Source: Flagellimonas amoyensis (lineage in GTDB: Bacteria > Bacteroidota > Bacteroidia > Flavobacteriales > Flavobacteriaceae). From it: a stretch of DNA of 64,000 nt. The stretch covers positions 186,001 to 250,000 of the forward strand of contig NZ_QBUK01000004.1 in assembly GCF_003058265.1 (NCBI RefSeq), given 5' to 3'. Below, piece by piece: positions 1,161 to 17,995 of this stretch. Each line of letters begins with the position of its first letter. The first letter of the stretch is position 1. The notes under the pieces are model-generated. The model searched no databases, was not told the DNA's origin, and saw only the letters and a program-made list of their open reading frames with translations. The translations under genes and the position numbers were made by a program.

Positions 1161-1174
1161 TGATACTATATTGA
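1161..1174. promoter_or_regulatory. Putative AraC-family operator (copy 1)
   Basis: The sequence TGATACTATATTGA is identical at all 14 positions to 17982-17995 upstream of the second susC gene, and closely related to 5963-5976 upstream of a DUF885 gene. It lies between the DHDPS-family operon and the divergent araC-type gene. The binding protein is inferred to be the product of the gene at 1360. Confidence 0.5.
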
Positions 1175-1287
1175 CAGAAGAATAAGACATAGTCCATCCA
1201 ATAGGCAAAATTTAGTTCATAAAATAAGGGTAAATAGAGCTTCCAAAGGGGGTTTTCTCCATTTTCTTGATTTTTATTATCTAAAAT

Positions 1288-1303
1288 CTATACTATATTA
1301 CCC
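1288..1303. promoter_or_regulatory. Putative AraC-family operator (weaker copy)
   Basis: The 10-base core ATACTATATT (1290-1299) is shared with the sites at 1161 and 17982. It lies 57 bases before the araC-type start codon and 127 bases (about 12 helical turns) from the first copy in the same orientation. It could serve autoregulation or a repression loop; both roles are inference. Confidence 0.35.
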
Positions 1304-1359
1304 GAAAACATTGTTTTGACCCATAAAGTTAGTAATTTCATATAAAAACCTCGTAAGCC

Positions 1360-2235
1360 ATGAAAGTTCTCCCATTCAAAATCCCCAAGCCCGAACAAGA
1401 AGCACTCGTCTATCAAGAAGATTCCGGCATCATCTTTTATGACAAGTTGCACCAACATGAAGAAATACAGATAAGCTATGTTGCCGCTGGGGAAGGATCC
1501 CTCATTGTGGGTGACACCGTCAACGATTTCAATCCGGGTGACGTGCTGGTCATAGGGGAAAATGTACCCCATGTGTTCCGAAGCGACCCTAAGAACTCCC
1601 CAAAATCCGTTATGTACACCTTGTTCTTCACCAAAAAATCATTCGGCAAGGATTTTTTCAGCCTTTCGGACCTGACCAGGTTACAGCTTTTCTTTGAAGA
1701 ATCGGGATATGGCATCAAGATCATGTCTAACTTGGAAAGGTTATCGTCCCATTTTGGACATCTCAAAAACCAGAGCCGTATCCAACGGATCGCAACCTTG
1801 CTGCACATTCTCGATATCATGATATCCTCTGAAAAACAACCTTTGTCCACTTTCGTATACCGAAAAATCTATACGAACGACGAGGGCAACCGAATGAACA
1901 ATGTGTTTGAATTTGCCCTGAACCATTTCCACGAACCTTTTTCCCTGGATACTGTGGCGGATAGGGCCAACATGAGCAAGAATGCTTTCTGTCGCTATTT
2001 TAAGAAGCGGACCAACAAGACTTTTTTTCAGTTTTTGATAGAGATCAGGATAGAACATGCTTGCCGATTGCTTTTCAGGAACAACGATCTTTCCATTGCC
2101 ATGGTGTCCGAACAATGTGGCTTTCTCAACATTGCCAACTTCAACAGAAAGTTCAAAGAACTAAAGGGCTCCACGCCCACCCAGTACAGAAAATACTCCA
2201 TTGAAAAATGGAACAACCAATCCAAGGCCTCCTGA
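1360..2235 (+). CDS. AraC family transcriptional regulator with cupin sensor domain
   Basis: This is a 291-residue cytosolic DNA-binding regulator. The N-terminal half (about 20-110) is a cupin-type sensing domain, seen in HQHEEIQISYVAAGEGSLIV and the PGDVLVIGENVPHVF strand. The C-terminal 100 residues form the double helix-turn-helix of the AraC/XylS family (DTVADRANMSKNAFCRYFKKRT and the second HTH ending in FNRKFKELKGSTPTQYRK). It is divergent from the DHDPS-family/aldehyde-dehydrogenase operon and is the only regulator in the first 18 kb. I infer that it activates that operon, the DUF885 genes and at least one susCD pair through the shared TGATACTATATTGA motif. The inducer is not known from sequence; hydroxyproline or a breakdown product is likely. 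Confidence 0.9.
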   Translation: MKVLPFKIPKPEQEALVYQEDSGIIFYDKLHQHEEIQISYVAAGEGSLIVGDTVNDFNPGDVLVIGENVPHVFRSDPKNSPKSVMYTLFFTKKSFGKDFFSLSDLTRLQLFFEESGYGIKIMSNLERLSSHFGHLKNQSRIQRIATLLHILDIMISSEKQPLSTFVYRKIYTNDEGNRMNNVFEFALNHFHEPFSLDTVADRANMSKNAFCRYFKKRTNKTFFQFLIEIRIEHACRLLFRNNDLSIAMVSEQCGFLNIANFNRKFKELKGSTPTQYRKYSIEKWNNQSKAS

Positions 2236-2281: not shown

Positions 2282-4018
2282 CTATTCGTAAAACTTCCAA
2301 TTGGTCTTGAAGTCCTTGGTCAATTTTTGGCCAGTGATGATAGCCCTTACCATTTCCATGGGCATGGCGTTCAGCTTGATGGCCTTGTCATGGAATTCCT
2401 TTATCCCCATTTTCCCACTGTCCACCATTTCCTTTTTCAAGGCGTAGAATTGGCGTCCTCCTGTCAAATAGCCCACTTGGTACAATGGGTTACTGTTGCT
2501 GGACAAGGGTCCACGGATCTCACTTTCAGCATTGATGCGCTCATGGCCCACTTTATCCACCAGAAAGTCGATACATTGCTGCGGCGTCCATTCGCCCATG
2601 TGGAAATTAAAGGAAAAGATGATACGAGCGCAGCGGTGCATGTGCCAGAACAGCATCCCTACGCGCTCTTCCGGCGTGGTCGGAAAATCCATGTCCCACA
2701 ACAAGAGCTCCCAGTACAATGCCCATCCTTCCATCCAGAATGGTGTACCGAAGTTGCGATAGGTACGGTAACGCTCATTCATGAAATATTGCATGTTGTG
2801 CCCAGGAATCAGCTCATGGTGCACTGTTGCGAACGAGAAATTGGGATTGTTGCCCCGCATGCTCATCATCTTGAACTCATGGTCCATGGTATTTGTGGGG
2901 TACGAAATGGTAATATTGGTCCCTCCCGTGAAGAAGGCGTTGGTACGCTGTCTTTCGGGTGACATCATATACATCCCCCAAACCTCTTCTTCCAAAGGTG
3001 GAATGGTGACCAAATCATGTTTTTTGAGGAACGCTACGGATTTTTCATATAGATCCAATATCGCCTCTGGCTGTTTTCCGGGAGGCACATAGGTGTCCTT
3101 CACATGCTCCAAGGCAGCTTTCCAATCGTTGCCAAATCCAAGCTCTTGGGAGGCCTTCAGCATCTCCTTTTCACACCAGGCAAATTCCTCATTGGCTATT
3201 TTGGTGAGCTCCTCTGGGGTGTACGGAACCATTTGATATTCCAGCAGACGGTTGAGCTCCTCTCGGCCTACAGGTTTTCGGGAAACGATGCCATTTTTGT
3301 CCGGGGTCTGTTTCTGCTTGAACAATTCGGTGTATTCCTTCAACGATGCATCCAGATCTTCATAGGTTTTTGAGGTCCACCAGGTGAACATGGGATCATA
3401 CCCATTGTAAAACCCATGAACATCGGCCAAGGCCTGTTGCAGGCCGTTGCCAACATCGGTCGCCTTCCTGATGACCAGCACGCTCAGGTCGTCCGAAGCC
3501 TTTAGCGTTGTTTTCAGGGAGTCGATCTGATCAAAGATTCCGGACCAATCCTTTGCCACTTGTTGTGCATGGGGCTGGATTCCTCTTCTTCTCAATTTAA
3601 ACAGGTCGTAGACCGTATTGCTAAAAGGGAACCATTTGGCCACACTGTCCAACTCGCGTCGCTCCACTTGGGACTGACGCAAGTTTTCATTGAGATCTCT
3701 TTTGAAAAGAATATAATCCACTTGGCATTCTTGGGACAACGCATCAAAGTCCATGGCGCTCAGTTTGTCCAAATATTCCTTGTACAAGCGGTCCATACGG
3801 TCCAATTTTTCTGGGTATGATGCAGATGGACCCCTTCTTCCAAAACCGTAGAACGACCCTGTGGAAGGACTATAAAAATTGTCCAATACCCTGGAATCTG
3901 CCTGAAAATTTTCCATGAGATAGGGCATCTCCTGGCAGGGAACAAAATCCGCTTCTTGGGCAAAGCCCATAGCTATGGTTACAAGACTAAAAAGCCCTCC
4001 AATAAAAGTGTTCCTCAT
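2282..4018 (-). CDS. DUF885 family secreted putative metallopeptidase (copy 1)
   Basis: The product is 578 residues from the ATG at 4018, chosen because it opens a clear signal peptide (MRNTFIGGLFSLVTIAMGFA, cleavage before Q) and lies 2 bases after the stop of the upstream paralogue. The in-frame start at 4051 would put unrelated residues before it. DUF885 proteins carry a zinc-peptidase-like HExxxGH signature; here it is HHELIPGHN at about residues 400-408. Conserved EGWALYWELLLWD, GHERINAESEIRG and YLTGGRQF blocks follow. It is the distal gene of a two-gene unit with the paralogue at 4021-5796. A role as periplasmic or surface peptidase acting on imported peptides is inferred from family and context; substrate specificity cannot be read from sequence. 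Confidence 0.85.
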   Translation of the reverse strand: MRNTFIGGLFSLVTIAMGFAQEADFVPCQEMPYLMENFQADSRVLDNFYSPSTGSFYGFGRRGPSASYPEKLDRMDRLYKEYLDKLSAMDFDALSQECQVDYILFKRDLNENLRQSQVERRELDSVAKWFPFSNTVYDLFKLRRRGIQPHAQQVAKDWSGIFDQIDSLKTTLKASDDLSVLVIRKATDVGNGLQQALADVHGFYNGYDPMFTWWTSKTYEDLDASLKEYTELFKQKQTPDKNGIVSRKPVGREELNRLLEYQMVPYTPEELTKIANEEFAWCEKEMLKASQELGFGNDWKAALEHVKDTYVPPGKQPEAILDLYEKSVAFLKKHDLVTIPPLEEEVWGMYMMSPERQRTNAFFTGGTNITISYPTNTMDHEFKMMSMRGNNPNFSFATVHHELIPGHNMQYFMNERYRTYRNFGTPFWMEGWALYWELLLWDMDFPTTPEERVGMLFWHMHRCARIIFSFNFHMGEWTPQQCIDFLVDKVGHERINAESEIRGPLSSNSNPLYQVGYLTGGRQFYALKKEMVDSGKMGIKEFHDKAIKLNAMPMEMVRAIITGQKLTKDFKTNWKFYE

Positions 4019-4020
4019 TT

Positions 4021-5796
4021 CTATTGTTTTGGTGGATCGTAGAATTTCCATTTGGCCTTGTAGTTCTTGCTGATTTTCTGATCGGTCATGATGGCCTTTA
4101 TCATTTCAACCGGCATTGCATTCATGGTGATAATCCTATCATGGAATTCCTTGTTGGTCATTTTACCGCTGTCCACGAGTTCTTTGTGCAAAGCATAGAA
4201 CTGACGACCTCCTGTGAGATAGGCCAACTGATACAATGGAGGATAGTTGCCCACAAAAGAACGTCTTACCTCGCCTTCTGCATTGGCCCGCTCATGCCCA
4301 ACACGGTCCACCAAAAAGTCGATACATTCCTGAGGCGTCCATTTGCCCAAATGATAGTTCAAGGAGAAAATGATACGTGCGCAACGGTGCATGTGCCAGA
4401 ACAACATGCCTATGCGGTCTTCGGGTCCTTGCGGGAAACCTTTGTCCCACAACAGAAGTTCCCAGTAGAGTGCCCATCCCTCGGTCCAGAATGGGGTGCG
4501 GAAATTGCGGTAGGTTCGGTGACGGCTGTTCATGAACCCTTGCAGGTTGTGCCCTGCAATCAATTCGTGGTGCACGGTCGCCATGGAGAAATGTGGGTTG
4601 TTGCCCCTCATGCTCATCATGCGTTGCTCATAGGTCATGGCATCAGTGGGGTATGAAATACTGATCGAAGAGCCACCGGTAAAGAATGGATTTACCAATT
4701 GACGCTCTGGGGACATCATACCCATACCCCAAACTTCTTCTGCCAATAGGGGAATTGTGATCAAATCGTTCTTTTTAAGGAAATCCACCGCTTCTGTGTA
4801 AAGGCGCAAAATCAATTCTGGCTGTTTTCCAGGCTCCACATACGCGTTCTTTACTTTTTCCTGGGCCGCTTTCCAGTCATTGCCAAATCCCATTTCTTGA
4901 GTTGCCTTCAATAGTTCGGCATCGCACCAAGCAAATTCTTCATTGGCCAATTTTATCAATTCTTCAGGGGTATAATCGATCATTTCATACTCCAATTGCT
5001 TCATCAGTTCTTCCCTGCCCACAGGATTGCCCACAATGCCACTTTCATCCACAGGCTTCCCTTTATCGATTTTTTTGTTGAATACTTCGGCATACGCGTC
5101 AAAGCCTTTGCCCATTTCTTCGTAAACGGTGGACATCCACCACGTGAATAGCGGATCATACCCATTATAGAAGGAATATACGTTCTCCGCTGAATTTTTA
5201 AGGTCCGTGATGACAAGAAGTGCTTCTTCCACCTCATCCTTCGCCAAAGTGGTTGTTCCTTCAAGTTGGGTCTTCAGTGTCTTCAACTGCACCACCACAT
5301 CGTTCCATTCCTTGGCCATTTTGGTGGCATCAGGTTGATGGCCCCTTCTTCTTCCTTCAAGATACGAATAGATGTTGCTGGAGAACGGAAACCATTTTTT
5401 GATCTTTTGATAGACGACTTCTTGTTCCTTGGCCTCGGCATTTTCCTTTTCCAAATCCCGTTTGAAAAGCACATAGTCGGCCTTACATTCTTGGGCCAGT
5501 GCATTGAAGTCCAATTTTTCCAACTTCACCAAGTAGTCGTTCCTTAGTTTGGTCATTCTGGCCCTTCGTTCGGGAGATCCTCCGGGATCATTTGTCCTTC
5601 CCCAAGATCTACGGGCACCCGGCGCATAAAAACGGACCAATGAACCATAATCCGCATTGTATTTGGTCATTAGATCTGGCATTTCCTCGCAGGGCACATA
5701 CAGCGCTTCTTGTTTTGCCTGTGCATTCAAGGACATTGAAATTGGCCCCATCAAAAGAATGGCCGAGGCAATCCATAACATTTTTTTATTTCTCAT
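4021..5796 (-). CDS. DUF885 family secreted putative metallopeptidase (copy 2)
   Basis: The product is 591 residues from the ATG at 5796 (MRNKKMLWIA...LNAQA, a signal peptide); the frame is open to 5859, but those extra residues are not signal-like. The active-site motif is HHELIAGHN near residue 409, followed by EGWALYWELLLWD and GHERANAEGEVRR. It is clearly paralogous to both neighbours over its whole length. It is the first gene of a two-gene transcription unit. A TACCTTTA -7-like element (5913-5920) and the operator-like motif at 5963-5976 precede it with the same spacing as in the DHDPS-family operon. Hydrolysis of peptides in the periplasm is inferred, not shown. Confidence 0.85.
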   Translation of the reverse strand: MRNKKMLWIASAILLMGPISMSLNAQAKQEALYVPCEEMPDLMTKYNADYGSLVRFYAPGARRSWGRTNDPGGSPERRARMTKLRNDYLVKLEKLDFNALAQECKADYVLFKRDLEKENAEAKEQEVVYQKIKKWFPFSSNIYSYLEGRRRGHQPDATKMAKEWNDVVVQLKTLKTQLEGTTTLAKDEVEEALLVITDLKNSAENVYSFYNGYDPLFTWWMSTVYEEMGKGFDAYAEVFNKKIDKGKPVDESGIVGNPVGREELMKQLEYEMIDYTPEELIKLANEEFAWCDAELLKATQEMGFGNDWKAAQEKVKNAYVEPGKQPELILRLYTEAVDFLKKNDLITIPLLAEEVWGMGMMSPERQLVNPFFTGGSSISISYPTDAMTYEQRMMSMRGNNPHFSMATVHHELIAGHNLQGFMNSRHRTYRNFRTPFWTEGWALYWELLLWDKGFPQGPEDRIGMLFWHMHRCARIIFSLNYHLGKWTPQECIDFLVDRVGHERANAEGEVRRSFVGNYPPLYQLAYLTGGRQFYALHKELVDSGKMTNKEFHDRIITMNAMPVEMIKAIMTDQKISKNYKAKWKFYDPPKQ

Positions 5797-5912
5797 TCTG
5801 ATCGTTGGTTTGGTTAAAAAATTATCCAATACCGAAAGAAAATGACCTCTGTACCTCACTGGACCGAGTCATTTAGGGCATTGCAAAAAACTTGTGTTTC
5901 TGTAAAACACTT

Positions 5913-5920
5913 TAAAGGTA
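5913..5920 (-). promoter_or_regulatory. -7-like promoter element of the DUF885 two-gene unit
   Basis: The minus strand reads TACCTTTA, 7 of 8 matches to TAnnTTTG. It lies about 117 bases before the ATG at 5796. No -33 box is visible. The operator-like motif centre is 53 bases further upstream. Confidence 0.4.
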
Positions 5921-5962
5921 TTGTAGATTTATGCCGTCCCGTAATCGCATATTAACTGTAAT

Positions 5963-5976
5963 TGATATTATATTAT
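5963..5976. promoter_or_regulatory. Putative AraC-family operator (copy 2)
   Basis: The sequence TGATATTATATTAT matches the motif at 1161 and 17982 at 11 of 14 positions. It is in the same orientation relative to the controlled gene, and its centre is 53 bases upstream of the -7-like element. Confidence 0.42.
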
Positions 5977-6046
5977 CTAATGCGGTATCAAGCAGATATC
6001 CTTGGAACAGAACCCTTTGATCGGGTTTCGCGAGCTCTTATAAAAT

Positions 6047-6078
6047 CCTAGGGCCATCATTTTACCGATGGCCCTAGG
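6047..6078 (-). terminator. Rho-independent terminator after DUF885 copy 3
   Basis: A perfect 12-base stem (CCTAGGGCCATC paired with GATGGCCCTAGG) encloses an 8-base loop. On the minus strand it is followed by ATTTTAT. It lies just beyond the stop codon at 6107. Confidence 0.8.
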
Positions 6079-6106
6079 AGACTAAACTCAAAACAATTAA
6101 AAACAA

Positions 6107-7855
6107 CTATTTTCCATTATAGAACTTCCAGGAAGTTTTATAATTCTTGTCCAAAGGTTGGTTGGTAAGTATGGCCCTGACCATTTCCACAGGCATACTG
6201 TTCTCGCGCAAAACGGCATCATGGTATTCCTTGTAGGTCATTTTTCCAGAGTCCACCAATTCTTTTTTGAGGGCATAGAACTGCATTCCCCCGGTCATGT
6301 AGGCCAATTGGTACAAGGGTCCATATCTGCCGGTAAACGAACGCCTGACCTCTCCTTCCGCATTGGCCCTTTCGTGGCCCACTCGGTCCACCAGATAATC
6401 AATGCACTCCTGCGGAGTCCATTTGCCCAAATGGTAATTGAGGGAGAATATAATTCTTGCACAACGGTGCATTCTCCAGAACAACATCCCGATACGATCT
6501 TCAGGAGATCGCGGAAAATCCATATCCCAAAGGATAAGTTCCCAGTAGAGTGCCCATCCTTCGGTCCAGAATGGAGTCCTGAAGTTTCTGTAGGTCTTGT
6601 TCCTTCTGTTCATGAAACCTTGCAAGTGGTGGCCCGCGATCAGCTCATGGTGCACAGTGGCCCTGGAGAAATGTGGGTTGTTCCCCCTCATGCTCATCAT
6701 TTTGTCCTCATGGTCCATGGTATTGGTTGGATAGGAGATCTGCAAGGTTTCACCCCCCAGGAAGAAAGGGGCAATTTTCTGTCTTTCTGGGCTCATCATG
6801 CTCATTCGCCAAGTTTCCTCAGCCACAGGCGGAATGCTCAAGAGGTCATTTTTCTTCAAAAATGCTATGGATTGGTTGTAAAGGTCCAACATGGCTTCGG
6901 GCTGTTGTCCTTCTGGCACATAGGATTGCTTCACCTTTTCCTGTGCGGCCTTCCAGTCATCCCCAAATCCCATTTCACGGGATGCCTTCAAAAGTTCCTT
7001 GTCGCACCAGGCAAATTCCTTGTTGGCGATTTCCACCAATTCTTCTGCCGAGTAGGGAATGAAGGCATCTTCCAATAGGTTCTTGAGTTCCTTTGCGCCG
7101 ACCGGGCTTCCTACGATACCGCTGCCATCGTCCTTGGAAAGGGTGCTTTCATCCACCTTGCTCATGATGAGCGCTCCATAGGCTTTCAACTGCTCCATGA
7201 GCTGGGCATAGGGTTTTTCCATCCACCAGGTGAAGTCAGGGTCGTATCCATTATAGAATTGATAGATGCTTTCCAGGGCCGTTTGGTGGCCTTTGACCAC
7301 ATCCTGACCTCTCTCGGCCTGTTTACGATCGAATGTGGGCGGTTCCTTGGAAAGTGTTGCCGACAGGCTTTTCAGTTCGTTGCTGATCTCGTTGAACTGA
7401 GCGGCTATTTTGGAAGATTCCAAATGGATGCCCCTTCTGCGCAATTTTTCTGTTTCGTAGATGGGCCCTGCATAGGATACCCATTTTTCAATTTTGGCGT
7501 ATTCCTGCTTTTCCTCTTCCAGATTTCTGAGATTTCTGTTGATCTCACTTTTTACCAAGAGATAATCCACCCTACCGTTCACCGATAGTTGGTTGAATGG
7601 AAATTTTTCCAATCTGGAGAGGTAATCTTGATAGAATTGCTTGAAACGTTCCCTTTTTTCTGGCGAGCTGTCCACGATGTAGAACCTGCCCAGGCTCCCT
7701 TCATCGGCGGACATCTCGTTCATGAGCTGGTAAAGTTCGCTCACCGGAGCTTCGTTGCCTGCACTGTTCTGGGAATGCGCGGTCCATCCCATGATCAAGG
7801 CCAACACTAGGGTCTTGAGATGCATTTTGTGAAATTTCTTCATGCTTTTGTTCAT
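6107..7855 (-). CDS. DUF885 family secreted putative metallopeptidase (copy 3)
   Basis: The product is 582 residues from the ATG at 7855; 7867 and 7843 are possible alternatives. All of them leave a signal peptide ending LIMGWTAHS before QN. The zinc-peptidase-like motif is HHELIAGHH near residue 402, followed by EGWALYWELILWD and GHERANAEGEVRR blocks shared with the two downstream paralogues. It stands alone between two terminators and has its own TATTTTTG -7 element (7899-7906) without a nearby copy of the operator-like motif, so it may be regulated differently from copies 1 and 2. Peptidase function is inferred from the family signature. Confidence 0.84.
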   Translation of the reverse strand: MNKSMKKFHKMHLKTLVLALIMGWTAHSQNSAGNEAPVSELYQLMNEMSADEGSLGRFYIVDSSPEKRERFKQFYQDYLSRLEKFPFNQLSVNGRVDYLLVKSEINRNLRNLEEEKQEYAKIEKWVSYAGPIYETEKLRRRGIHLESSKIAAQFNEISNELKSLSATLSKEPPTFDRKQAERGQDVVKGHQTALESIYQFYNGYDPDFTWWMEKPYAQLMEQLKAYGALIMSKVDESTLSKDDGSGIVGSPVGAKELKNLLEDAFIPYSAEELVEIANKEFAWCDKELLKASREMGFGDDWKAAQEKVKQSYVPEGQQPEAMLDLYNQSIAFLKKNDLLSIPPVAEETWRMSMMSPERQKIAPFFLGGETLQISYPTNTMDHEDKMMSMRGNNPHFSRATVHHELIAGHHLQGFMNRRNKTYRNFRTPFWTEGWALYWELILWDMDFPRSPEDRIGMLFWRMHRCARIIFSLNYHLGKWTPQECIDYLVDRVGHERANAEGEVRRSFTGRYGPLYQLAYMTGGMQFYALKKELVDSGKMTYKEYHDAVLRENSMPVEMVRAILTNQPLDKNYKTSWKFYNGK

Positions 7856-7898
7856 TTTTATGTCCATTGGTCAAGGTCCATTTAAAAACAGACCCTAC

Positions 7899-7985: not shown

Positions 7986-9446
7986 TTATTTATTGTCCCA
8001 AGTGGTTCCCTTGGCAAACCAATCCGGTTGACCAACAGCGGTTACATTCGGGTTTCTTTCCACTTCATTGAGCGGATAGGGAAACCTTCGGGGAAAGGTT
8101 TCGGTGTTGTACACGTTCAACAACATGTAATCAAAATCAAACTCTGGATACCCGGTCCTCACAAAATCAAAATAGGTTTCGTGGGTCCTGAACACATTGG
8201 CTATATATTTTTGCTCGATGATAAGCTGTTGTGCATCTTCCACATTGGTCGGCATGGTCAATGAAGGTTGGGCCAAATGGGCATCGATGTCCGCTTGGGC
8301 GACCCCTATGAATTCCATATCGGCCGTTATGCCCGCTTTCATGGCCTCCTCTGCCAAAGCCCATTGGCCATTGAAGGCATAGGCCTCGGCCCTGATGAAC
8401 TCGGATTCGGCGTACATCATGATCTGTGCGGGATAGGACATGGAAATGTAGGTATACCTGTAGTGACTGGGCGTTTGTCCTGGTTGGACAACTGCTCCTG
8501 ACTGCAAGCCCACGAACCCATCTGGAAACTCTTCGGAATAGGTGAACATGATGGGCCTACGGGGATCATCGAAAGAATTCATCAAATCGATCAAAAAGTT
8601 GCCGGGTGTCAATCCAAGTCCACCGGAATATGCCCGGTTCATGTAGCCGAACAAGGGGTTTGCATTGGCCAATTCCTCCAAATGCCTCCACATCACATTA
8701 TCGTCATTGGATGTCATTCCATCTTCAAGATAGGTCAAGGCCAAAGTGGCCTGAGCTGCCGGAGTTGTTCCAGGCGCATAGGACAAACGCAACGCTTGTC
8801 TGGCTTTCATCGAATTTGCATACCTGATCCATTTGTCCATATCCCCTCCAAGAAGGTAATCGTCAGTTCCGGGAACACGGTCTCCTTGGTTAGGCGCTCC
8901 CAAAAGGGTGATGGCCTCATCCAAAAGTCCATTGGCATGTGCATACAGTTCCGCTTGGCTGGCCAAGGCAGGCTGCAGTGCATCCAATCCTTGAATGGCA
9001 TCTTCCAATGGTGCCTGATCGTAAACATCGGCGATGTAGAACCAATGAAAGGCGGCAATGATCCCCGCCACACCTTGGTAATGGGTGTTCCCATTTTCTT
9101 CGGCCTTGTTGTACAGCTCCACGGCATGCTTCAATGAAATGGAATAGGAATCCCAAACTTCGTTACCATAATCGGCATTGATGTCCATGGACCTTGAAGT
9201 AGATCCTTCAATGGAGTGCCAGGACAGCCATTGGGCAAAACCTTCCCATGTGTTCAATTGTTCTGTGGCCAATGCGGCCCATTCCGCTTCTACCCCGATC
9301 AACATCACATTTTCTGTGATCAGCGGGCTATCCACAATGCTATTGGGGTCTTGGTCAACGTCTATCCAACTTTCACAACTTGTAAAGAAGGTCAGTATGG
9401 CGACCAAAATAGCGTATGGCTTTATATATGTTCTTTTCATAGTCAT
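7986..9446 (-). CDS. SusD/RagB family nutrient-binding lipoprotein (pair 1)
   Basis: This is a 486-residue surface lipoprotein. The signal peptide ends in a lipobox with FFTSC, so lipidation is expected near Cys24. The start could be the ATG at 9446 or the ATG two codons later at 9440. The CESWIDVDQDPN opening and the overall length fit the SusD-like_2 type of the SusD/RagB superfamily, whose TPR-like helices bind oligomeric ligands on top of the SusC barrel. It begins 5 bases after the susC stop codon and forms one operon with it. The ligand is not readable from sequence; the neighbouring DUF885 peptidases suggest peptides rather than glycans. Confidence 0.9.
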   Translation of the reverse strand: MTMKRTYIKPYAILVAILTFFTSCESWIDVDQDPNSIVDSPLITENVMLIGVEAEWAALATEQLNTWEGFAQWLSWHSIEGSTSRSMDINADYGNEVWDSYSISLKHAVELYNKAEENGNTHYQGVAGIIAAFHWFYIADVYDQAPLEDAIQGLDALQPALASQAELYAHANGLLDEAITLLGAPNQGDRVPGTDDYLLGGDMDKWIRYANSMKARQALRLSYAPGTTPAAQATLALTYLEDGMTSNDDNVMWRHLEELANANPLFGYMNRAYSGGLGLTPGNFLIDLMNSFDDPRRPIMFTYSEEFPDGFVGLQSGAVVQPGQTPSHYRYTYISMSYPAQIMMYAESEFIRAEAYAFNGQWALAEEAMKAGITADMEFIGVAQADIDAHLAQPSLTMPTNVEDAQQLIIEQKYIANVFRTHETYFDFVRTGYPEFDFDYMLLNVYNTETFPRRFPYPLNEVERNPNVTAVGQPDWFAKGTTWDNK

Positions 9447-9450
9447 CGTA

Positions 9451-12400
9451 TTAAAATTTGGCGGTTAAGGTGAGTGTATATGTCTTGGTGGCCGGCATAC
9501 TGTAACCCAAGTAGGCGTTACCATTGGTGATACCGTCGGTGTTCACCTCGGGATCGGCACCTTCAAAACCATCCTTGAACTTTCTCCACAGGTTCCTTCC
9601 CGAGAGGGAGATGTCCAAAGCGGTAAGGCCCACATTGGACAACATGTCCTTTGGAATCTTGTAGGACAGGTTCACTTCCCTTAGTTTGATGTAGTCCCTT
9701 GGCATGATGTTGTCTTCCCAAACGTTTTGGGCCACGGTCTGCCAATACAGGTCATATCGGGTCGCTTCTGGTGTTTCACTGGTCACCACAACTTCTCCAT
9801 TTTCAACATGGCCCATGACACCATCAAAAGTGATCATGTTATCCTCTGGTCTGTTCTCTTGGTGCTTGGCCATACCGTAATAAGTAAGGTAGTGGTCGTT
9901 CAAACTGTACAGGTAACCTCCTTTGCTGATGTCCAACAAAGCGGAAAGCGAAATGTTCTTGTACCTGAAGGCTGTCCTGAAACTTCCCATCCAATCGGGC
10001 ACGGTCTGTCCCAATATTTGGTTTTGGGAGTTGTCCGCCAATGGGCGTCCGTAGCCTGTTCCAGGAGCATCGCTCAAGACCAATCTTCCTTGATCGTCCC
10101 TAAGGAAACCGGGGCCGAAGATCACGGGATAAGGTTGGCCCACAACAGCAGTACCATAAGAGCCTACCGATACAGGTTCGTCGTTGTTCCCTAAGTTATC
10201 CACAACGGGGTTATCCTTGGAGAAATTGATATTGAGATCCCATTCAAAATCATTGGTCTGTATCGGTGTTGCATTGATGGCCAATTCCACCCCTTTGTGG
10301 GTAATTCCTCCAATGTTCACATCACCAAAGGTATATCCTGTTGAGGCCAAGAACTGCTCGCTCAAGATCTGGTTATCGCTCCAGTTATGATAGTACGCGA
10401 AGTCGATTCCCAATCTATTTTGCAAAAACTTCAATTCGGCACCCAATTCAACCTCGCTCTTGAACTCATTGCTCAAACCCGAGTTTGGTATTTTGTCTGT
10501 TGACAAGTAGCTCCTTTGTCCACTGAAAGGCCAAAGCACCCCGTCACTGGAAGGATCATCCAATACAATATTTCGGGCATAGGGATCGGCAGGGGAACCT
10601 ACCTTAGCATAACTGGCCCTTAATTTACCATAGTTGAACACATCAGATTTGGGCAACAGCTCGCTGAATATAAAACCAACGCTATGGCTGGGATAGAAGA
10701 AGCTATCGGCCACACTGGACGCCCAGTCGTTCCTACCGGTCACGGTGTAGTATAGCCAGTTTTTGTATCCGATCATGGCCTGTCCGAAGAACGAATACGC
10801 CCTAAAAAGTCTTTTGTATTCGTAGGCATTGAAGCCACTAACGTTGGCCGTGTTGTAGATTCCCGGAAGGACCAACCCATTGCCTTCAAAATTGATTTCC
10901 CGCCTTCTGTTCTCGGAAATGTTATGACCCACCAAGGCCATGACACTGAAATCCCCAAAATCATTATCGTAGGTCAAAGTTTCCGTGGACTCTATGTTAC
11001 GATCAAATCGCTCCATAGTATCATAGCTTCCCTGTACTGAAGCATAGCCTCCCCTATTGTAATGGGCATCTTCATGCAAACTGGAAAAACTGATACCGGT
11101 TATGGTTCTAAAACTCAGCTTGGGAACAATCTCATATTCTATGCTGACGGTACCGTTAAATCGATCTCTCTCGTTATTATTTCCTACATTGTCCAACAAC
11201 CACAGGTAGGGATCCCTAGATCCTCCACGGAAAGATCGCAAACGACCATCCTCATCATATAAGGGATAGGGGTTCCATGTGTTCGGCTGGGCCAATAGGG
11301 TGTTCATGAACGCACTGTTGGAGCTGTTCTCGTCCAAGCGGGTATTCTTTTGTGTGGAATACATAAGGTTGGTGGAAACTGTCAGCTTTGGGGTAAACTT
11401 AAAGGTTGTGTTGGCATTGATGGCATTCCTACGGAACTTCATCGGATCCAAGATACCGTCGTTCATCAAGTTACTGTAGCTCACAAAATAGGATGCTTTT
11501 GAGGTGCCACCCATGGCACTGATGGTACTTTCATTGGTAAAGGCCGTCTTGAACACATCCCATCGATCATAGTATTGTGCCCCTGGCACATCGGAGATCC
11601 TTGGACCAAAACTTGTGGAGGTGAAGGCTGTTTCCCCATCTACGTAGCTCCAACCTGTGCCATCCCAAAAACCTTGCGCCCACTCTTTTTGAAGTGGAAC
11701 TTCATAAATTCTATCAAAGCTTACAGAGTTGGAAAAAGTGATCACCGGTTTAGATTCAAATTCACCGGATTTGGTGGTGATGAGCAGTACCCCATTCGCT
11801 GCACGGCTTCCATAAAGTGCCGCTGCCGAGGCTCCTTTAAGTACACTAAGGCTTTCAATGGAGTTGGGGTCGATATCCCCGAGACCTGATGATGTGCTGG
11901 AGTTGGCCGCATCAAAAGGCACACCGTTCACTACGATCAAAGGTTGGTTGTTCCCTGTTATGGAAGACCCGCCCCTGATCACGATACGGGTACCACTACC
12001 GGGCTGACTAGAGGTGCTGGAGATCTGTACCCCTGCTACCTTACCGCTCAATGAGTTCACAAAGTTGTTGGTCGCCTTGACCCCACTTATATCGTCCCCA
12101 TCCACTTGGGCCGTGGCATAGCCCAGCGCCCGCTTATCGCTCTTGATGCCCAAGGCGGTAACGACCACTTCCTGCAATGCCTGCGCATTCTCTTGCAACA
12201 CTACAGAAATACTGGTGCGACCATTAAGGGCAACCTCTTGGGAATTGTATCCCATATATGAGATTTCCAAAACGGCATTTTGGCCAGATACCTCAAGGGT
12301 AAAGTTTCCATCAAAATCGGTCTGGGTGCCATTGGGACTTCCCTTCTCCACAATACTGGCTCCGGGAAGGGGTGTTCCGGTCTCGTCCACAACGGTCCCG

Positions 12401-12597
12401 GTTACTGAAAACTGGAACCTGTCCGCAACTTTTTCGGAACCGGTCATCTTTGTCACGTCATTTCCATCTTCTCCCATTGAAATAGAAACATCCATGGCGT
12501 TGGTTTCTGTGGTCCCTACAAAAAAGCAAATCATGCACGTACAGACCAACAACAATTGGTTTGTTATCCTTTTGGACAACTTTATCAGGTTTTTCAT
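9451..12597 (-). CDS. SusC/RagA family TonB-linked outer-membrane transporter (pair 1)
   Basis: The product is 1048 residues: a signal peptide (to about residue 35), a CarboxypepD_reg-like domain at about 65-140 (GTVVDETGTPLPGASI, then DFDGNFTLEV), a plug domain at about 150-270 (VNSLSGKVAGVQI, RGGSSITGNNQPLIVVNGVP) and a long beta-barrel ending in TKTYTLTLTAKF with the terminal phenylalanine typical of barrel proteins. The length matches the family (about 1000). It imports ligand captured by the following SusD using TonB energy. A long leader of up to 350 bases precedes it, with a short open frame and tandem copies of the operator-like motif. Confidence 0.95.
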   Translation of the reverse strand: MKNLIKLSKRITNQLLLVCTCMICFFVGTTETNAMDVSISMGEDGNDVTKMTGSEKVADRFQFSVTGTVVDETGTPLPGASIVEKGSPNGTQTDFDGNFTLEVSGQNAVLEISYMGYNSQEVALNGRTSISVVLQENAQALQEVVVTALGIKSDKRALGYATAQVDGDDISGVKATNNFVNSLSGKVAGVQISSTSSQPGSGTRIVIRGGSSITGNNQPLIVVNGVPFDAANSSTSSGLGDIDPNSIESLSVLKGASAAALYGSRAANGVLLITTKSGEFESKPVITFSNSVSFDRIYEVPLQKEWAQGFWDGTGWSYVDGETAFTSTSFGPRISDVPGAQYYDRWDVFKTAFTNESTISAMGGTSKASYFVSYSNLMNDGILDPMKFRRNAINANTTFKFTPKLTVSTNLMYSTQKNTRLDENSSNSAFMNTLLAQPNTWNPYPLYDEDGRLRSFRGGSRDPYLWLLDNVGNNNERDRFNGTVSIEYEIVPKLSFRTITGISFSSLHEDAHYNRGGYASVQGSYDTMERFDRNIESTETLTYDNDFGDFSVMALVGHNISENRRREINFEGNGLVLPGIYNTANVSGFNAYEYKRLFRAYSFFGQAMIGYKNWLYYTVTGRNDWASSVADSFFYPSHSVGFIFSELLPKSDVFNYGKLRASYAKVGSPADPYARNIVLDDPSSDGVLWPFSGQRSYLSTDKIPNSGLSNEFKSEVELGAELKFLQNRLGIDFAYYHNWSDNQILSEQFLASTGYTFGDVNIGGITHKGVELAINATPIQTNDFEWDLNINFSKDNPVVDNLGNNDEPVSVGSYGTAVVGQPYPVIFGPGFLRDDQGRLVLSDAPGTGYGRPLADNSQNQILGQTVPDWMGSFRTAFRYKNISLSALLDISKGGYLYSLNDHYLTYYGMAKHQENRPEDNMITFDGVMGHVENGEVVVTSETPEATRYDLYWQTVAQNVWEDNIMPRDYIKLREVNLSYKIPKDMLSNVGLTALDISLSGRNLWRKFKDGFEGADPEVNTDGITNGNAYLGYSMPATKTYTLTLTAKF

Positions 12598-12949: not shown

Positions 12950-12984
12950 GGATAATATAATATGCATATGCGATAATATCTTAT
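12950..12984. promoter_or_regulatory. Tandem operator-like direct repeats upstream of susC pair 1
   Basis: GGATAATATAATAT (12950-12963) and CGATAATATCTTAT (12971-12984) each match the operator at 5963-5976 at 11 of 14 positions. They are in the same orientation and exactly 21 bases apart, the spacing of tandem half-sites for AraC-type regulators. Confidence 0.35.
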
Positions 12985-13219: not shown

Positions 13220-14824
13220 TTAGTTGGGGTATCCTGGGTTCTGTTCCAAATTGGTGTTGGTGTTCCTTTCTTCCAGTCCTATGGGAAAAAGAATGGTATA
13301 GTCTCCCTTAGGGGTATGGTTGTACCAATTTTTGGTCTGATAGACCCCAAAACGTATCAAATCTGTCCTTCTTCTGGCCTCGGCAGCAAATTCCCAGCCC
13401 AATTCGTCCAAAAAGCGTCCATAGGGCACTACAGATTGGTCTCCTGGTTGGTCAATGGTCCCATCCTCGGCCAAAGTACCATACTGGACCGTGGTATCCC
13501 CTTCCAATTCGGCTCCGGTGACTGTTGCATCGGCTGGGTCATCAAAAGAACGTTGGCGCACTTGGGTCACTATTATGGCCGCATCATCACTTCTATTGGT
13601 ACGGAGCAATGCTTCAGCTTTCATCATCAGGACATCGGTATATCGAAGAAATGGAAAGTCGACACTGAGACCTCCAGTTGCTCCTGGCTCAATTTCATAT
13701 TTTGCACATCTGAACCCTTCGGTAAAATCACAATCGTAAATGCTTGGCATTTCTTTCACCAAGGTCATCACAACGCTTCCATCCGAATAGTTCAACTGAT
13801 CTCCCATCAACCAAGTGTCGGCCAAACGGTTGTCCGTTGGCTCATAACTGTCTATAAATTGGGGATTACAGCTGGATCCTCCCCATGGTTGTGCCTGCAT
13901 TCCGAAAACCAATCGGTGGTCGGGCAAGAGCATTTTCATGTGGGCACTCCATTGTCCCGCAAAAATCTGATCATAGGGAATGGCAAAGACCATTTCAGAG
14001 TTGCCTTGGTTCTCCGTGGCGAATATATCTGAATAGCTGGACGAAAGGGTGAAAGCCCCACTACCGATGATGGCATCACATACCGTGATCACATTGGCCC
14101 ATTGTGGAGTTCCGGTATAGACTTCGGCGTTCAGGTACACACGTGCCAAAACATGGTAGGCTGCCCACTTGGTCATACGTCCATAGGTGGACTGATCTAC
14201 CGTTTCGGTCAGGTTTGGAATCACTTCGTTCAATTCCGACACGATGAAATCATAGACCTCGGAGCGAGTGTTTTGGACGGGAAGTTCATCACTATAGCTG
14301 GCTATGATCGGTACATTTCCGTGCGTATCCACCAACATGGAATAGTACAGGGCCCTGAGTGCACGCATCTCGGCAATGATGGATGCGGCTTGGGCCTCGC
14401 TCACAGGCAGTTCCCCAGACTCGATTTGAAGAATGACCCTGTTGGTACTGTTGATACCGTTAAAACAGGTTATCCAGGTATTTCTGGGCTGCCATTGGGT
14501 CTCGGTCCATTCGTGAAAATGCATCCTTTTATAGGTTCCCCCATCATCCCATCCGTTGGGCCTTGTTGGGGTCACAAACATATCCGCTGGTTCTTCCTGA
14601 AGATCAAAATAACCCTGCCACCCCATAACAAACCGCATGGGGGTATAGGCCGAGGCCATCACTGAAATAATGTCCGACTCCGCAGGCACGAAGGAGGATT
14701 CCGTCACTTCGGAAAACACTTCCTCTTCAAGGTCGGTACAACCTATCGGCAGCAAGATCACACTGGCCGACAGTATCAAAAATCTCAATCTAAGTGAAAT
14801 CACTTTGTTCAATATATTTTTCAT
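13220..14824 (-). CDS. RagB/SusD family nutrient-binding lipoprotein (pair 2)
   Basis: This is a 534-residue lipoprotein of the classical SusD/RagB type. The signal peptide ends in LLPIGC, giving a lipidated Cys29 followed by TDLEEE. The helical TPR region includes RALRALYYSMLVDTHGNVPI, and the C-terminal domain ends EAEARRRTDLIRFG followed by a LFPIGLEE segment; both are family hallmarks. It starts 11 bases after the stop of its susC partner and is followed by a strong terminator. It would sit on the cell surface and hand ligand to the SusC channel. The specific ligand is unknown. It differs in type from the SusD at 7986, so the two pairs probably take different oligomers. Confidence 0.93.
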   Translation of the reverse strand: MKNILNKVISLRLRFLILSASVILLPIGCTDLEEEVFSEVTESSFVPAESDIISVMASAYTPMRFVMGWQGYFDLQEEPADMFVTPTRPNGWDDGGTYKRMHFHEWTETQWQPRNTWITCFNGINSTNRVILQIESGELPVSEAQAASIIAEMRALRALYYSMLVDTHGNVPIIASYSDELPVQNTRSEVYDFIVSELNEVIPNLTETVDQSTYGRMTKWAAYHVLARVYLNAEVYTGTPQWANVITVCDAIIGSGAFTLSSSYSDIFATENQGNSEMVFAIPYDQIFAGQWSAHMKMLLPDHRLVFGMQAQPWGGSSCNPQFIDSYEPTDNRLADTWLMGDQLNYSDGSVVMTLVKEMPSIYDCDFTEGFRCAKYEIEPGATGGLSVDFPFLRYTDVLMMKAEALLRTNRSDDAAIIVTQVRQRSFDDPADATVTGAELEGDTTVQYGTLAEDGTIDQPGDQSVVPYGRFLDELGWEFAAEARRRTDLIRFGVYQTKNWYNHTPKGDYTILFPIGLEERNTNTNLEQNPGYPN

Positions 14825-14835
14825 AGTCTTTTATT

Positions 14836-17832
14836 TTAAAATGTGAAGTTGATACCCAATGTAAATGTCCTAATGGTAGGATATTTATCCCTTTCATCAT
14901 TGCCAGGTGCCAATCCATCCCGGTTTACTTCTGGGTCGATTCCCTTATATTTTGAAAAGGTCGCCAAGTTCAGGCCAGAGGCATAAATGCGAAAGGTCTG
15001 GGCAAACTTGACCGCATCTTTCGGCAGGGTGTACCCTAGGGTAACGTTATCTATCTTCAAAAAGTCACCATCTTCCACGTAATGGCTCACAAAACGCTGT
15101 ACATCCTGGAGAACCGCTTTGCCATAGACCAAATCGTAGGCTGAATCCAAGGTGTTGTAGCCTATGGTAGGGTTTTCATAGAACATACGGGAGAAATTCA
15201 GAATCTGGTAATCCAGTGCCCCTCTCAGGTTGAACATAAGGTCCCAGTTCTTGTATTTCATGGTGTTGTTCCAGCTATAGTATGCTTTGGGAAGGCCGTT
15301 GCCCAACACCTGACGGTCATCGTTGGTAGCCTCAGTGGCAGGCACCCTTGTGCCATCTGGCCTTTCTATGATCCAGATACCATCATCCGTGATGTCCACG
15401 CTCTTCAATCCGAAGAAATTACCGATGGGCTGCCCTTCCTGGACCCTATGGGTGGCAATCTGTATGGGCTCTCCCGTATAGCCTTGATCGAAGAAATCGT
15501 TGGTCAATTGGAATTCATCATTGGATAGGGAAACAATCTCATTGGAGTTGGTGGAATAGGTCAAATTGGCCGTCCACTGGAAATTCTCCGTTTGGAACGG
15601 GGTCAAGTTCACCAAGAATTCCAGACCGGAGTTCTTGATCTGTGCCACGTTGGCTGCAATATTGCCATAAAAATAAGGGGGAGTGGGAACGCTATAGTTG
15701 AACAATGCATCCTTGGTTGTCCTATTATAATAGTCCACGGAACCATTGATGCGTCCATCCAAAATCCCAAAATCCAGACCCACGTTAAATTCCTCTTTCT
15801 TTTCCCAACGCAAATTGGGGTTGGCATTACGGGAAGGCACCAACTGTCTTACCCATTCCCCATTGTTCAAGAAATAGTCCCCATAGGTAAGGCCGCTCAA
15901 CGACTGGTATCTGGCTCCTGCGTTGGTACCTGTCACACCAAATCCTGTCCGTAGTTTCAAGTTGGACAACCAATCCCAATTATCCGCAAAGGACTCTTGG
16001 TCAATACGCCATCCCAAGGAAATACCAGGGAAATTACCCCATTTGTAATCCTCACCAAAACGGGTGGACCCTTCACGGCGCATACTGGCCATCAAAAGGT
16101 AGCGGTCATCATAATTATAGGTGACCCTGGAGAAGAACGCAATCAACTTGTCGGCATTCTTGTAGCTGCCCATGCCGCCTTCACCAAGCTGCAGTCCTTG
16201 TCCACTGCCCAGGTTATTATAGGTGAATCCATCGGTGGGAAACCTACGGTTGGTGGCCCAGAAACCTTCGTTCATGTTGTCCTCGTAGTTATACCCCACC
16301 AGTGCCGTTACCTTGTGGGCACCAAAACTGTTGTCGTAATCCACTGTGAACTGACCATAGTTCCCTACATAATTATCCGTACCCCTTGAGGCGAATCCCC
16401 CTTGTCCATTTTCCGTGGTGGACACGTGGTTCTTGGTCTGATAGAATCCCCTGATATTGGTCTCCCCTTTTCGGGTATACAGACCTTTTACGGTAAGATG
16501 ATCGCCAAAATCATAGCTCATGGATAAATCTATCCTACTGGTTCGGTATCGGTTCTCCCCAAAGGTTTCCTCAATATAGGAAACCGGGTTGTCGTAGAAA
16601 TATACGGCCCTTTCAAACCAGCTACCGTCCTCGTTTCGGATGGGCTCCGTTGGGTTATGGATAATGGCCTGACGGTAGATGTATGGGTTGAAACTATCCC
16701 CATCACCCAATGCATTGTATACCTGCTCACTCAAGATGACACCAACACTGGTCTTCAATTTGTTGTCGAACATGGCATGGTTCACATTGATCCTACCTGT
16801 ATATTTTTCATTGTTGGATTTCAGGAATATTCCCTCAATATCCCTATAGTTGATAGAGGCGGTCATATTCGAAGTGGAATTCCCGCCCCGGAAGATAATG
16901 TTGTGCACTTGGCTGAAGGCATCCCTGGTGATTGCATCCACCCAATCCGTATCGTCTCCAAAATCCTGTAGGTTGGCACCGGTAAACGTGTATCCCTCAT
17001 TGAATTTTTCCCTGAGCTCGGACGCGTTCAAAAAGTCCATTCTGTCCGCTATGGTGGCCAAAGAGGCATACCCGTTGTATTCAATGGTGGATTTCATGTC
17101 GGTGGTACCTTGCTTGGTGGTAATGATGATCACCCCATTGGTTCCCCTAGTACCATAGATCGCTGTGGCGGAACCATCCTTCAGTACATCGATGGATTCG
17201 ATATCCTCAGGCGCAACTGTGTTCAAGCTGCCCGGAACGCCATCCACCAACACCAAGGGATTAGATCCTTCAGATGATAAAGTCGATATCCCCCTCAGAT
17301 TGATCTGTGTGCCTTCGGTCGGGTCCCCTGAAGGTGCCGAAACGGACAGACCTGCCACCTTACCTTGGATAAGCTGTGCCGCATCCCTAACGTTGCCCTG
17401 CACAAAATCCTCGGCCTTTACCGTGGCCACCGAACTGGTCACGTCGGCACGCTTTTGCGTACCGTAACCGATCACCACCACTTCCGAAAGTTGCTGAAGG
17501 TCCTCTTTCAGCACTACATTTATTGTAGCTCCCCAAACAGGAATCTCCTGGGCCACAAAGCCCAAATAGGAAAACACCAGTACGGCATTGGATTCCGTGG
17601 TGGTGATCTCAAAATTCCCATCAAAATCCGTAGCGGTACCATTGCTGGTGTTCTTTTGCATAACCGCTGCCCCTGCAATGGGGATTCCCTGCTCATCGGT
17701 CACAGTACCCGAAACCCTCTGTTGGGAGAATCCGGCATGTACCGCAAAAAGGCCGAACATGGCAAACAAAACCAGTTTCTTGAAACGATTTGTTCCCTGA
17801 CATTCTTTGAATAAAAAGCTAGCCAATTTCAT
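14836..17832 (-). CDS. SusC/RagA family TonB-linked outer-membrane transporter (pair 2)
   Basis: The product is 998 residues from the ATG at 17832 (MKLASFLFKECQG...), which opens a signal peptide ending AVHAGFS; an in-frame ATG at 17904 would add 24 non-signal residues. A CarboxypepD_reg-like domain (VSGTVTDEQGIPIAGAAVM) is followed by the SusC linker EVVVIGYGTQKRADVTSS, the plug domain (LIQGKVAGLSVSAPSGDPTE) and a beta-barrel ending FTLGINFTF. It couples with the SusD at 13220 in one operon. An identical copy of the 14-base operator-like motif lies about 150 bases upstream, 52 bases from a TACATTTA -7-like element. Confidence 0.95.
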   Translation of the reverse strand: MKLASFLFKECQGTNRFKKLVLFAMFGLFAVHAGFSQQRVSGTVTDEQGIPIAGAAVMQKNTSNGTATDFDGNFEITTTESNAVLVFSYLGFVAQEIPVWGATINVVLKEDLQQLSEVVVIGYGTQKRADVTSSVATVKAEDFVQGNVRDAAQLIQGKVAGLSVSAPSGDPTEGTQINLRGISTLSSEGSNPLVLVDGVPGSLNTVAPEDIESIDVLKDGSATAIYGTRGTNGVIIITTKQGTTDMKSTIEYNGYASLATIADRMDFLNASELREKFNEGYTFTGANLQDFGDDTDWVDAITRDAFSQVHNIIFRGGNSTSNMTASINYRDIEGIFLKSNNEKYTGRINVNHAMFDNKLKTSVGVILSEQVYNALGDGDSFNPYIYRQAIIHNPTEPIRNEDGSWFERAVYFYDNPVSYIEETFGENRYRTSRIDLSMSYDFGDHLTVKGLYTRKGETNIRGFYQTKNHVSTTENGQGGFASRGTDNYVGNYGQFTVDYDNSFGAHKVTALVGYNYEDNMNEGFWATNRRFPTDGFTYNNLGSGQGLQLGEGGMGSYKNADKLIAFFSRVTYNYDDRYLLMASMRREGSTRFGEDYKWGNFPGISLGWRIDQESFADNWDWLSNLKLRTGFGVTGTNAGARYQSLSGLTYGDYFLNNGEWVRQLVPSRNANPNLRWEKKEEFNVGLDFGILDGRINGSVDYYNRTTKDALFNYSVPTPPYFYGNIAANVAQIKNSGLEFLVNLTPFQTENFQWTANLTYSTNSNEIVSLSNDEFQLTNDFFDQGYTGEPIQIATHRVQEGQPIGNFFGLKSVDITDDGIWIIERPDGTRVPATEATNDDRQVLGNGLPKAYYSWNNTMKYKNWDLMFNLRGALDYQILNFSRMFYENPTIGYNTLDSAYDLVYGKAVLQDVQRFVSHYVEDGDFLKIDNVTLGYTLPKDAVKFAQTFRIYASGLNLATFSKYKGIDPEVNRDGLAPGNDERDKYPTIRTFTLGINFTF

Positions 17833-17932
17833 AAATACATTTTTAGTTTGTTTAGTTAATTCCTCGCGCGAAAAACACCGTTCTTGATTTTCAAAATTCA
17901 TCAAAAATTAATAAGCGTTGTTTTTACACTTG

Positions 17933-17940
17933 TAAATGTA
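17933..17940 (-). promoter_or_regulatory. -7-like promoter element of susC pair 2
   Basis: The minus strand reads TACATTTA, 7 of 8 matches to TAnnTTTG, about 100 bases before the chosen ATG. No -33 box is visible. The centre is 52 bases from that of the motif at 17982-17995. Confidence 0.42.
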
Positions 17941-17981
17941 GCTTTCTGAAATTGAAGATTTATGAAAATATTATCCTGTTT

Positions 17982-17995
17982 TGATACTATATTGA
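17982..17995. promoter_or_regulatory. Putative AraC-family operator (copy 3)
   Basis: TGATACTATATTGA is identical over 14 bases to the copy at 1161-1174, almost 17 kb away, and extends to TTGATACTATATTGATC here. It lies upstream of the second susC gene in the same orientation relative to the controlled gene as copies 1 and 2. Confidence 0.5.

Follow-up and report, generated by a model that had tools for sequence, protein, structure and literature searches.

An AraC-family regulator and a two-half-site operator probably connect hydroxyproline catabolism with peptidase and SusC/SusD genes in Flagellimonas amoyensis

A stretch of 64,000 nucleotides from Flagellimonas amoyensis (hereafter, the window) encodes an AraC-family regulator that is very likely an autoregulated activator of genes for hydroxyproline catabolism, uptake and peptide cleavage and, through the gene run headed by a DPP gene, of a beta-L-arabinofuranosidase-type gene. 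The window covers bases 186001-250000 of a 348-kb contig in a genome of 4.10 Mb. The operator, its spacing, its conservation, its genomic association with the AraC protein and the family-level identities of the genes are results at the level of sequence, and the regulatory model built on them is worded conditionally below. The genes concerned are as follows, in window coordinates.

1360..2235, plus strand: AraC/XylS-family regulator with a cupin/AraC_binding N-terminal domain and an HTH_18 C-terminal domain
168..1091, minus strand: dapA-like DHDPS-family enzyme, gene 1 of the hydroxyproline operon, start set at 1091
4021..5859, minus strand: DUF885 putative peptidase with its own operator (domain match)
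2282-4051 and 6107-7867: other DUF885 genes (domain match)
7986..12597, minus strand: second SusC/SusD pair, SusD-like_2 type, with the SusC gene at 9451-12597
13220..17832, minus strand: SusC/SusD transporter pair (domain and NCBIfam matches)

In the regulator, Pfam models identified an AraC-type helix-turn-helix domain (HTH_18, 76.8 bits against a cut-off of 33.6; HTH_AraC, 61.5 against 26.6) and an N-terminal, ligand-binding cupin-type domain (Cupin_2, 31.3 bits against 27.2; AraC_binding, 27.1 against 21.1). Close named relatives are from Flagellimonas hadalis (97%) and Allomuricauda taeanensis (94%). A number of orthologues, e.g., those of L196 and L200 (Flavobacterium) and L068, show TTG, not ATG, at the position aligned with the araC start. 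The open reading frame list places the start of dapA at 1127, which overlaps the -7 element; because the relatives begin at a WxG(V/I)MPA motif, we placed it at 1091, after that element. The SusC-type TonB receptor (TIGR04056, 750.4 bits against 368.25) adjoins a SusD lipoprotein (SusD_RagB, 75.2 against 23.1). The three DUF885 genes stand in tandem (2282-7867), and an operator lies directly upstream of the middle one only.

The element from which the analysis started, the 14-mer TGATACTATATTGA of a preliminary description of the window, is a portion of a larger operator that has two half-sites. Its occurrences, exact at 1161-1174 and 17982-17995 and with 11 of 14 bases at 5963-5976, were confirmed, as were the distances of 53, 52 and 53 bases from their centres to the TAnnTTT(G/A) elements TATTTTTG, TACATTTA and TACCTTTA on the minus strand. 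On the dapA strand the operator reads GGATAATATAGTATYA-N4-TGGATAA, and the 14-mer is the reverse complement of its distal part. The half-site that had been overlooked is the second one, 21 bases nearer the gene, so that RGNTAA recurs as a direct repeat at a period of 21 bases, upstream of the promoter core. The sites and their -7 elements are listed below with their matrix scores.

1150..1176, minus strand: operator of dapA and the hydroxyproline operon, TGTCAATATAGTATCATAAAAGGCTAA, 24.2 bits; contains most of the 14-mer and the second half-site
1111..1118, minus strand: -7 element TATTTTTG of the dapA promoter, forward spacing 55
1277..1303, minus strand: araC-proximal operator GGGTAATATAGTATAGATTTTAGATAA, inverted relative to araC, 30.4 bits
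1333..1339, plus strand: -7-like element TAATTTC of araC; gap to the operator edge, 29 bases
5952..5978, minus strand: operator preceding the DUF885 gene, AGATAATATAATATCAATTACAGTTAA, 26.4 bits
5913..5920, minus strand: -7 element TACCTTTA of the DUF885 promoter
12950..12976, plus strand: operator in inverted orientation ahead of the second SusC gene, 24.0 bits
12913..12920, minus strand: -7-like element TAAGTTTC for the second SusC gene; gap to the inverted operator, 29 bases
17971..17997, minus strand: operator of the SusC/SusD pair, GATCAATATAGTATCAAAACAGGATAA, 19.8 bits
17933..17940, minus strand: -7 element TACATTTA of the SusC promoter, spacing 54, one base shorter
L031:14265-14278, just outside the window: operator before a DPP/S9-peptidase gene, 28.2 bits

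The DPP site was located after the preliminary description had been made and has the 53-base centre distance predicted by it, to the -7 element TAGTTTTA at L031:14222..14215. The araC-proximal site, whose core match at 1290-1299 had been overlooked, as had the operator of the second SusC gene, lacks a forward -7 element and lies instead at the inverted spacing from the araC promoter. The claim of a uniform orientation holds for the three sites originally described and for the DPP site, but not for the sites of araC and the second SusC gene, which are inverted.

The 14-mer by itself is a poor guide. With up to three mismatches it occurs nine times in the window against 4.84 expected, a number reached by three of 100 shuffles, and with up to two mismatches genome-wide there were 34 matches against 23 for a reversed control. 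This enrichment is mild and too weak for genome-wide prediction, and the claim could not rest on the 14-mer in isolation. We constructed a matrix of 32 columns from 115 operators of relatives found in 137 loci (100 distinct; effective number, 24.4), with the window and three near-identical loci (L185, L186 and L263) omitted from the training. In the 94 kb around the window, the matrix gave six sites above 19 bits, all inside 22 kb: araC (30.4), DPP (28.2), DUF885 (26.4), dapA (24.2), second SusC (24.0) and SusC (19.8). The next-best scores were 15.8 and then 5.1; the former belongs to a site at window position 36974 (plus strand) that is within an open frame of the other strand and is probably due to chance. 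In 50 Markov shuffles the best score averaged 8.0, the highest being 23.5 and the second 15.7, so that one of the 50 exceeds the SusC site. Equally good matches at random positions, which the preliminary description had named as grounds for rejecting it, were thus partly found for the bare 14-mer but not for the full operator in the 94-kb scan. The pattern YAATATARTATN8GNTAA, composed after five of its six perfect sites had been seen, matches the whole genome six times without mismatch, all within C17:182254-203994. The same pattern with up to two mismatches (38 matches against 27 for the control) was set aside, and its two one-mismatch matches (L131 and L132), scoring below 10 bits by the matrix, were dropped.

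Each of the two orientations has its own distance to the promoter. The four forward operators (dapA, DUF885, SusC and DPP) share their spacing to TAnnTTT, ending 31 bases before the -7 element, or 30 at SusC, whereas the inverted operators of araC and the second SusC gene have a second spacing and end 29 bases before it. Extracts of a study of Flavobacterium psychrophilum report a -7 element that spans -12 to -5 (PMC9723704). If this numbering applies here, the forward operators would extend from about -70 to -44 and the inverted ones from about -68 to -42, and both would occupy nearly one stretch relative to the promoter.

The forward spacing recurs among relatives. When 59 sites were aligned before the matrix was made (two of them from the window; L076, L081 and L082, which have no acceptable site, were left out), TAnnTTT(G/A) was found at offset 55 in 48 and at offset 56 in six, i.e., in 54 in total. 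Training operators were required to have a -7 element at the spacing, and because of this selection the spacing within the training set is not evidence. The matrix detected 198 sites above 15 bits over 140 loci, and in gene classes outside the training a spacing of 54-56 was found at SusC (21/21 sites; 18/18 distinct), DPP (8/10; 8/10), DUF885 (4/4; 3/3) and aldehyde dehydrogenase genes (6/6; 5/5). The corresponding number for dapA, 106/109, consists largely of training sites chosen for their spacing; at other genes it was 16/29, and at sites without an assigned gene 7/19. The proposed link among the catabolic operon, the peptidases and the SusC/SusD transporter thus extends to the SusC, DPP and DUF885 genes of relatives at the same spacing. 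Even the one-base-shorter SusC spacing recurs in Flagellimonas relatives (54 as against 55 or 56). The DUF885 operator is kept in five relatives from the genus, with scores of 26.4-26.9 bits in three and 14.5-15.5 in two and a spacing of 55 throughout.

All three promoters had been described as lacking a -33 box. Among the forward promoters of relatives, TTG was absent at both 19 and 20 bases before the -7 element (0/152 at each distance), in agreement with that description, but 17 of the 152 have TTG at 17-18 bases. The lack of TTG at the usual distance suggests that these promoters depend on an activator. The inverted spacing is likewise conserved: in araC leaders aligned on the operator edge, TA..TTT was found at offset 28-30 in 82 of 115 distinct leaders, 61 of them at 29; seven further three-offset windows gave 0-24. 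TTG occurs at offset 6 in 45 of the 115, and the araC promoter of relatives often retains a -33 TTG. The operator of the second SusC gene is kept in 5/5 other genomes of the genus with this SusC, with the -7 element at offset 28 or 29 (71 genus genomes searched, E<=1e-150). The araC gene is probably its own target.

Conservation of the operator was followed in two sets of loci, the best 60 places by AraC score besides the window's own, with up to 20 kb each, and a further 80 loci (L185-L264). The operator block sits between araC and a divergent dapA in relatives of the first set, and the same block was present in nearly every locus of the second. An operator lies at most 150 bases from the start of araC in 125 of 141 AraC loci, a count over both sets that is not independent because the sets overlap in genomes; kinship among loci also inflates the raw counts. 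Several of the other 16 loci have a site further upstream, and in seven (L076, L078, L081, L082, L089, L239 and L251) the examined stretch contains no site of more than 15 bits on the araC side; some of these may be paralogues. At L071 and, in Leeuwenhoekiella, at L213-L215, L217 and L234, the AraC orthologue and the operator are near GH51-/DUF5695-type genes, and no match to the hydroxyproline operon was found in the stretches fetched.

The association with the AraC protein was also evident at the level of genomes. The family sample comprised 299 genomes, of which 125 gave a match to AraC with E<=1e-50. The strict operator, with at most one mismatch, gave 57 matches in the 299 genomes against two for the reversed control, and 45 of the 57 are within 1 kb of an AraC orthologue. 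An orthologue is present in 51 of the 55 genomes with a strict match, as compared with 125/299 overall (Fisher p 2.5e-18, uncorrected for phylogeny), while 4/174 genomes lacking an orthologue at that threshold have a strict match. Where araC is on another contig (G119) or 759 kb away (G172), the operator precedes the dapA orthologue with a spacing of 55 or 56, respectively, and hence the operator tracks the target gene too; these two genomes were picked via their operators and do not give the frequency of such cases. Conversely, at L187-L189 and L191 dapA is not beside araC, and the araC-proximal site stays, without a forward -7 element. Conservation beside AraC orthologues, co-occurrence in genomes and the remote dapA sites together support the proposal that one operator serves several promoters through this AraC protein. 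Outside the family (ten loci, L293-L302, in nine genomes), a dapA match adjoins araC in 8/10. Sites with a spacing of 55 were found at L299 (25.9 bits), L293 (17.6), L301 (13.5) and L297 (10.9), and sites without the spacing at L294 (11.5), L298 (11.3) and L302 (9.4); nothing above 9 bits was detected by the matrix at L295, L296 and L300. The operator is clear mainly within the family and is weak or absent in most outside loci.

Other explanations of these patterns were weighed. Chance occurrence of the 14-mer and its spacing in AT-rich intergenic DNA would suit the mild enrichment of the 14-mer alone, but it does not accommodate conservation across genera, recovery by an independent matrix, the fixed spacing or the dapA sites far from araC; its probability is negligible, and we consider it refuted as far as sequence allows. 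It is also quite unlikely that a real operator is read by another regulator, such as a different AraC paralogue, with this araC merely one of its targets. The operator before araC would be expected of any target, and a second regulator gene, of the NUDIX/NrtR type, is nearby (L031:2995-3732). Against this stand the strong co-occurrence of the operator with this AraC and the persistence of the site near araC where dapA is not adjacent. The four genomes that match the strict operator without an orthologue would fit another reader, but the two inspected (L171, 15.5 bits; L161, 24.5 bits) have no -7 element at the spacing. Moreover, a direct repeat with a period of two helical turns suits a dimer of an AraC-family protein.

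We further considered that AraC may chiefly repress, or may act through a loop that joins the paired araC-dapA operators 127 bases apart, a reading that partly overlaps with activation and that we judge unlikely. The two full operators of the window are about 12 helical turns apart, and the distance is 126-127 bases in three close relatives; in Galbibacter, the interval between araC and DPP contains similar pairs at a distance of 116-117 bases (L225 and L227, at about 4828 and 4944). In these Galbibacter pairs, as in that of the window, one operator has the forward -7 spacing and the other does not. However, only 7/141 loci have a pair of sites that score above 15 bits and lie no more than 420 bases from araC, and a pair is more simply understood as separate sites for araC and for the gene divergent from it. 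Because pairs are so rare and the araC site remains without an adjacent dapA, one operator per gene is the simplest arrangement. Repression is also at odds with the position of the forward sites, which are upstream of the promoter and not over it, and with the absence of TTG at 19-20 bases, which suits activation. Activation by this AraC protein is accordingly the reading that we prefer.

The putative targets point to a common physiological role. Four genes, encoding a DHDPS-family enzyme, an aldehyde dehydrogenase, a 4-hydroxyproline epimerase and an FAD oxidase, form one co-directional run whose synteny is seen in many relatives. A curated equivalog cut-off was reached by the epimerase only (NF010578, 591.7 bits against 376), and the other three are named at the family level: the FAD oxidase belongs to the DAO family in Pfam (best NCBIfam model, 265.5 bits; cut-off, 383), the DHDPS-family enzyme reached no such cut-off, and the aldehyde dehydrogenase belongs to the Aldedh family, its best NCBIfam model being 2,5-dioxovalerate (alpha-ketoglutarate semialdehyde) dehydrogenase (124.1 bits; cut-off, 750). 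The operon that had been described simply as catabolic is, judging from these matches, probably one for trans-4-hydroxyproline degradation, and its gene set fits the route described in extracts of PMC7883544. At eight loci (L074, L075, L077, L079, L238, L244, L249 and L254), a different protein of 316-322 aa (...MPAVFTWLKES...) is encoded behind the operator with a -7 spacing of 54-55. The one from L075, the only one scanned, is of the DHDPS family; at L074 and L238 this protein stands in the place of dapA and is possibly a replacement of the deaminase step.

Downstream of DPP are genes for a GH127-domain protein (after 27 bases), a DUF5695 protein (after 12) and, after a longer gap, a GH43 protein. 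The GH127 gene (catalytic domain, 242.3 bits) is co-directional with DPP, from which we infer co-transcription and hence control by the DPP operator. The closest PDB entry to its product is 5opj (E 9.5e-64), which we take to be BtGH146, and entries of the B. longum enzyme match weakly. At L080, an operator with the -7 spacing precedes an open frame of 1026 aa containing a GH127 match. The operator was also found before genes for an S15 X-Pro peptidase, a DUF6055 protein and an arabinofuranosidase-domain protein, all three without the forward -7 spacing. Over the 140 loci, arabinofuranosidase-type genes recur, with GH127-domain matches in at least 19 loci (four at only 23-24% identity), DUF5695 in at least 10, GH51 in at least six and GH43 in at least two; these counts are lower bounds, as many loci end 5 kb from araC. 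The NUDIX/NrtR-type regulator mentioned above has an AraR_C-like domain, lies outside the window (C17:170995-171732) between arabinofuranosidase-type genes (GH43 and alpha-L-AF_C) and may exert separate control over the arabinose-related part of the cluster.

Hydroxyproline is an amino acid typical of collagen and of plant cell-wall proteins. No M9 collagenase domain was found among 19 different cluster proteins scanned against Pfam, and collagen, though possible as a substrate, was set aside in view of this result and of the recurring arabinofuranosidase-type genes. Hydroxyproline-rich glycoproteins are a plausible substrate because a Xanthomonas set of GH127, GH43 and prolyl oligopeptidase acts on their sugars. 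According to extracts of PMC6085000, such gene sets with GH127 and GH43 occur in Bifidobacterium longum and Xanthomonas euvesicatoria, with a prolyl oligopeptidase neighbour in Xanthomonas. The present cluster resembles them in its GH127-type beta-L-arabinofuranosidase and GH43 genes and, as in Xanthomonas, a neighbouring peptidase; sugar release is what those extracts describe, whereas here hydroxyproline catabolism carries the same operator. A collagen utilisation cluster of Colwellia (MAG BB5), as outlined in extracts of PMC7883544, likewise combines peptidases, a TonB-dependent receptor and hydroxyproline genes, but it includes an M9 collagenase and PutR.

An AraC-type activator of hydroxyproline genes is already known as a kind. 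LhpR of P. aeruginosa, an AraC-family protein, is said in extracts of PMC6608401 to activate the lhp (hydroxyproline) genes on binding L-hydroxyproline. What the sequences add here is a well-defined operator and a broad, conserved putative regulon, whose SusC/SusD, DUF885 and arabinofuranosidase-type targets are unmentioned for LhpR in those extracts. HypR, which controls hydroxyproline utilisation in Sinorhizobium meliloti and Streptomyces coelicolor and is predicted in Shewanella, belongs to a different family (GntR) and is described as a repressor in S. meliloti (PMC6608401, PMC3223726). Extracts of PMC8811837 describe the marbox of MarA/SoxS/Rob/RamA as a single asymmetric site for AraC-family proteins, which may face either way at defined distances (~-41 and -71.5). 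The present operator is similarly asymmetric and used in both orientations at set distances, but it has two half-sites and lies over nearly one stretch in both. E. coli AraC at araBAD binds two directly repeated half-sites (I1/I2) that adjoin the -35 region and are separated by about two helical turns. The half-site arrangement is alike here, with a different sequence, a Bacteroidota-type -7 promoter and two promoter-relative orientations. In the literature searched, consisting mostly of non-subscription journals and partly of extracts, we found no published account of this regulon or of a Bacteroidota counterpart.

We propose the following model, in which binding, activation, autoregulation, the inducer and the substrate are the inferred parts. 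AraC would bind the 27-base operator through two directly repeated half-sites, 21 bases or two helical turns apart, and the forward-site promoters would depend on it as an activator. The inducer is probably hydroxyproline or a pathway intermediate. Once bound to its inducer, AraC would activate the genes for the epimerase, the FAD oxidase, the DHDPS-family enzyme and the aldehyde dehydrogenase, together with those for the DPP/S9 and DUF885 peptidases and two SusC/SusD importers. By way of the DPP gene run it would also activate the gene for the GH127/GH146-type beta-L-arabinofuranosidase. The inverted sites would serve araC itself and the second SusC gene. A wider reading, which we offer tentatively and do not regard as the expected outcome, is that one AraC protein, widespread in Flavobacteriaceae and recognisable beyond, reads one operator both ways at two fixed distances and thereby joins sugar trimming by beta-L-arabinofuranosidase, peptide cleavage, SusC/SusD import and hydroxyproline catabolism for the consumption of plant or algal hydroxyproline-rich glycoproteins, with hydroxyproline and not the glycan as the signal.

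With the operator, spacing and targets of a Bacteroidota regulator fixed by comparison of many genomes, the predicted regulon becomes directly testable for each gene. Should the arabinofuranosidase link prove correct, the cluster would represent a bacterial route for recycling hydroxyproline-rich glycoproteins in which an amino acid signals to SusC/SusD loci.
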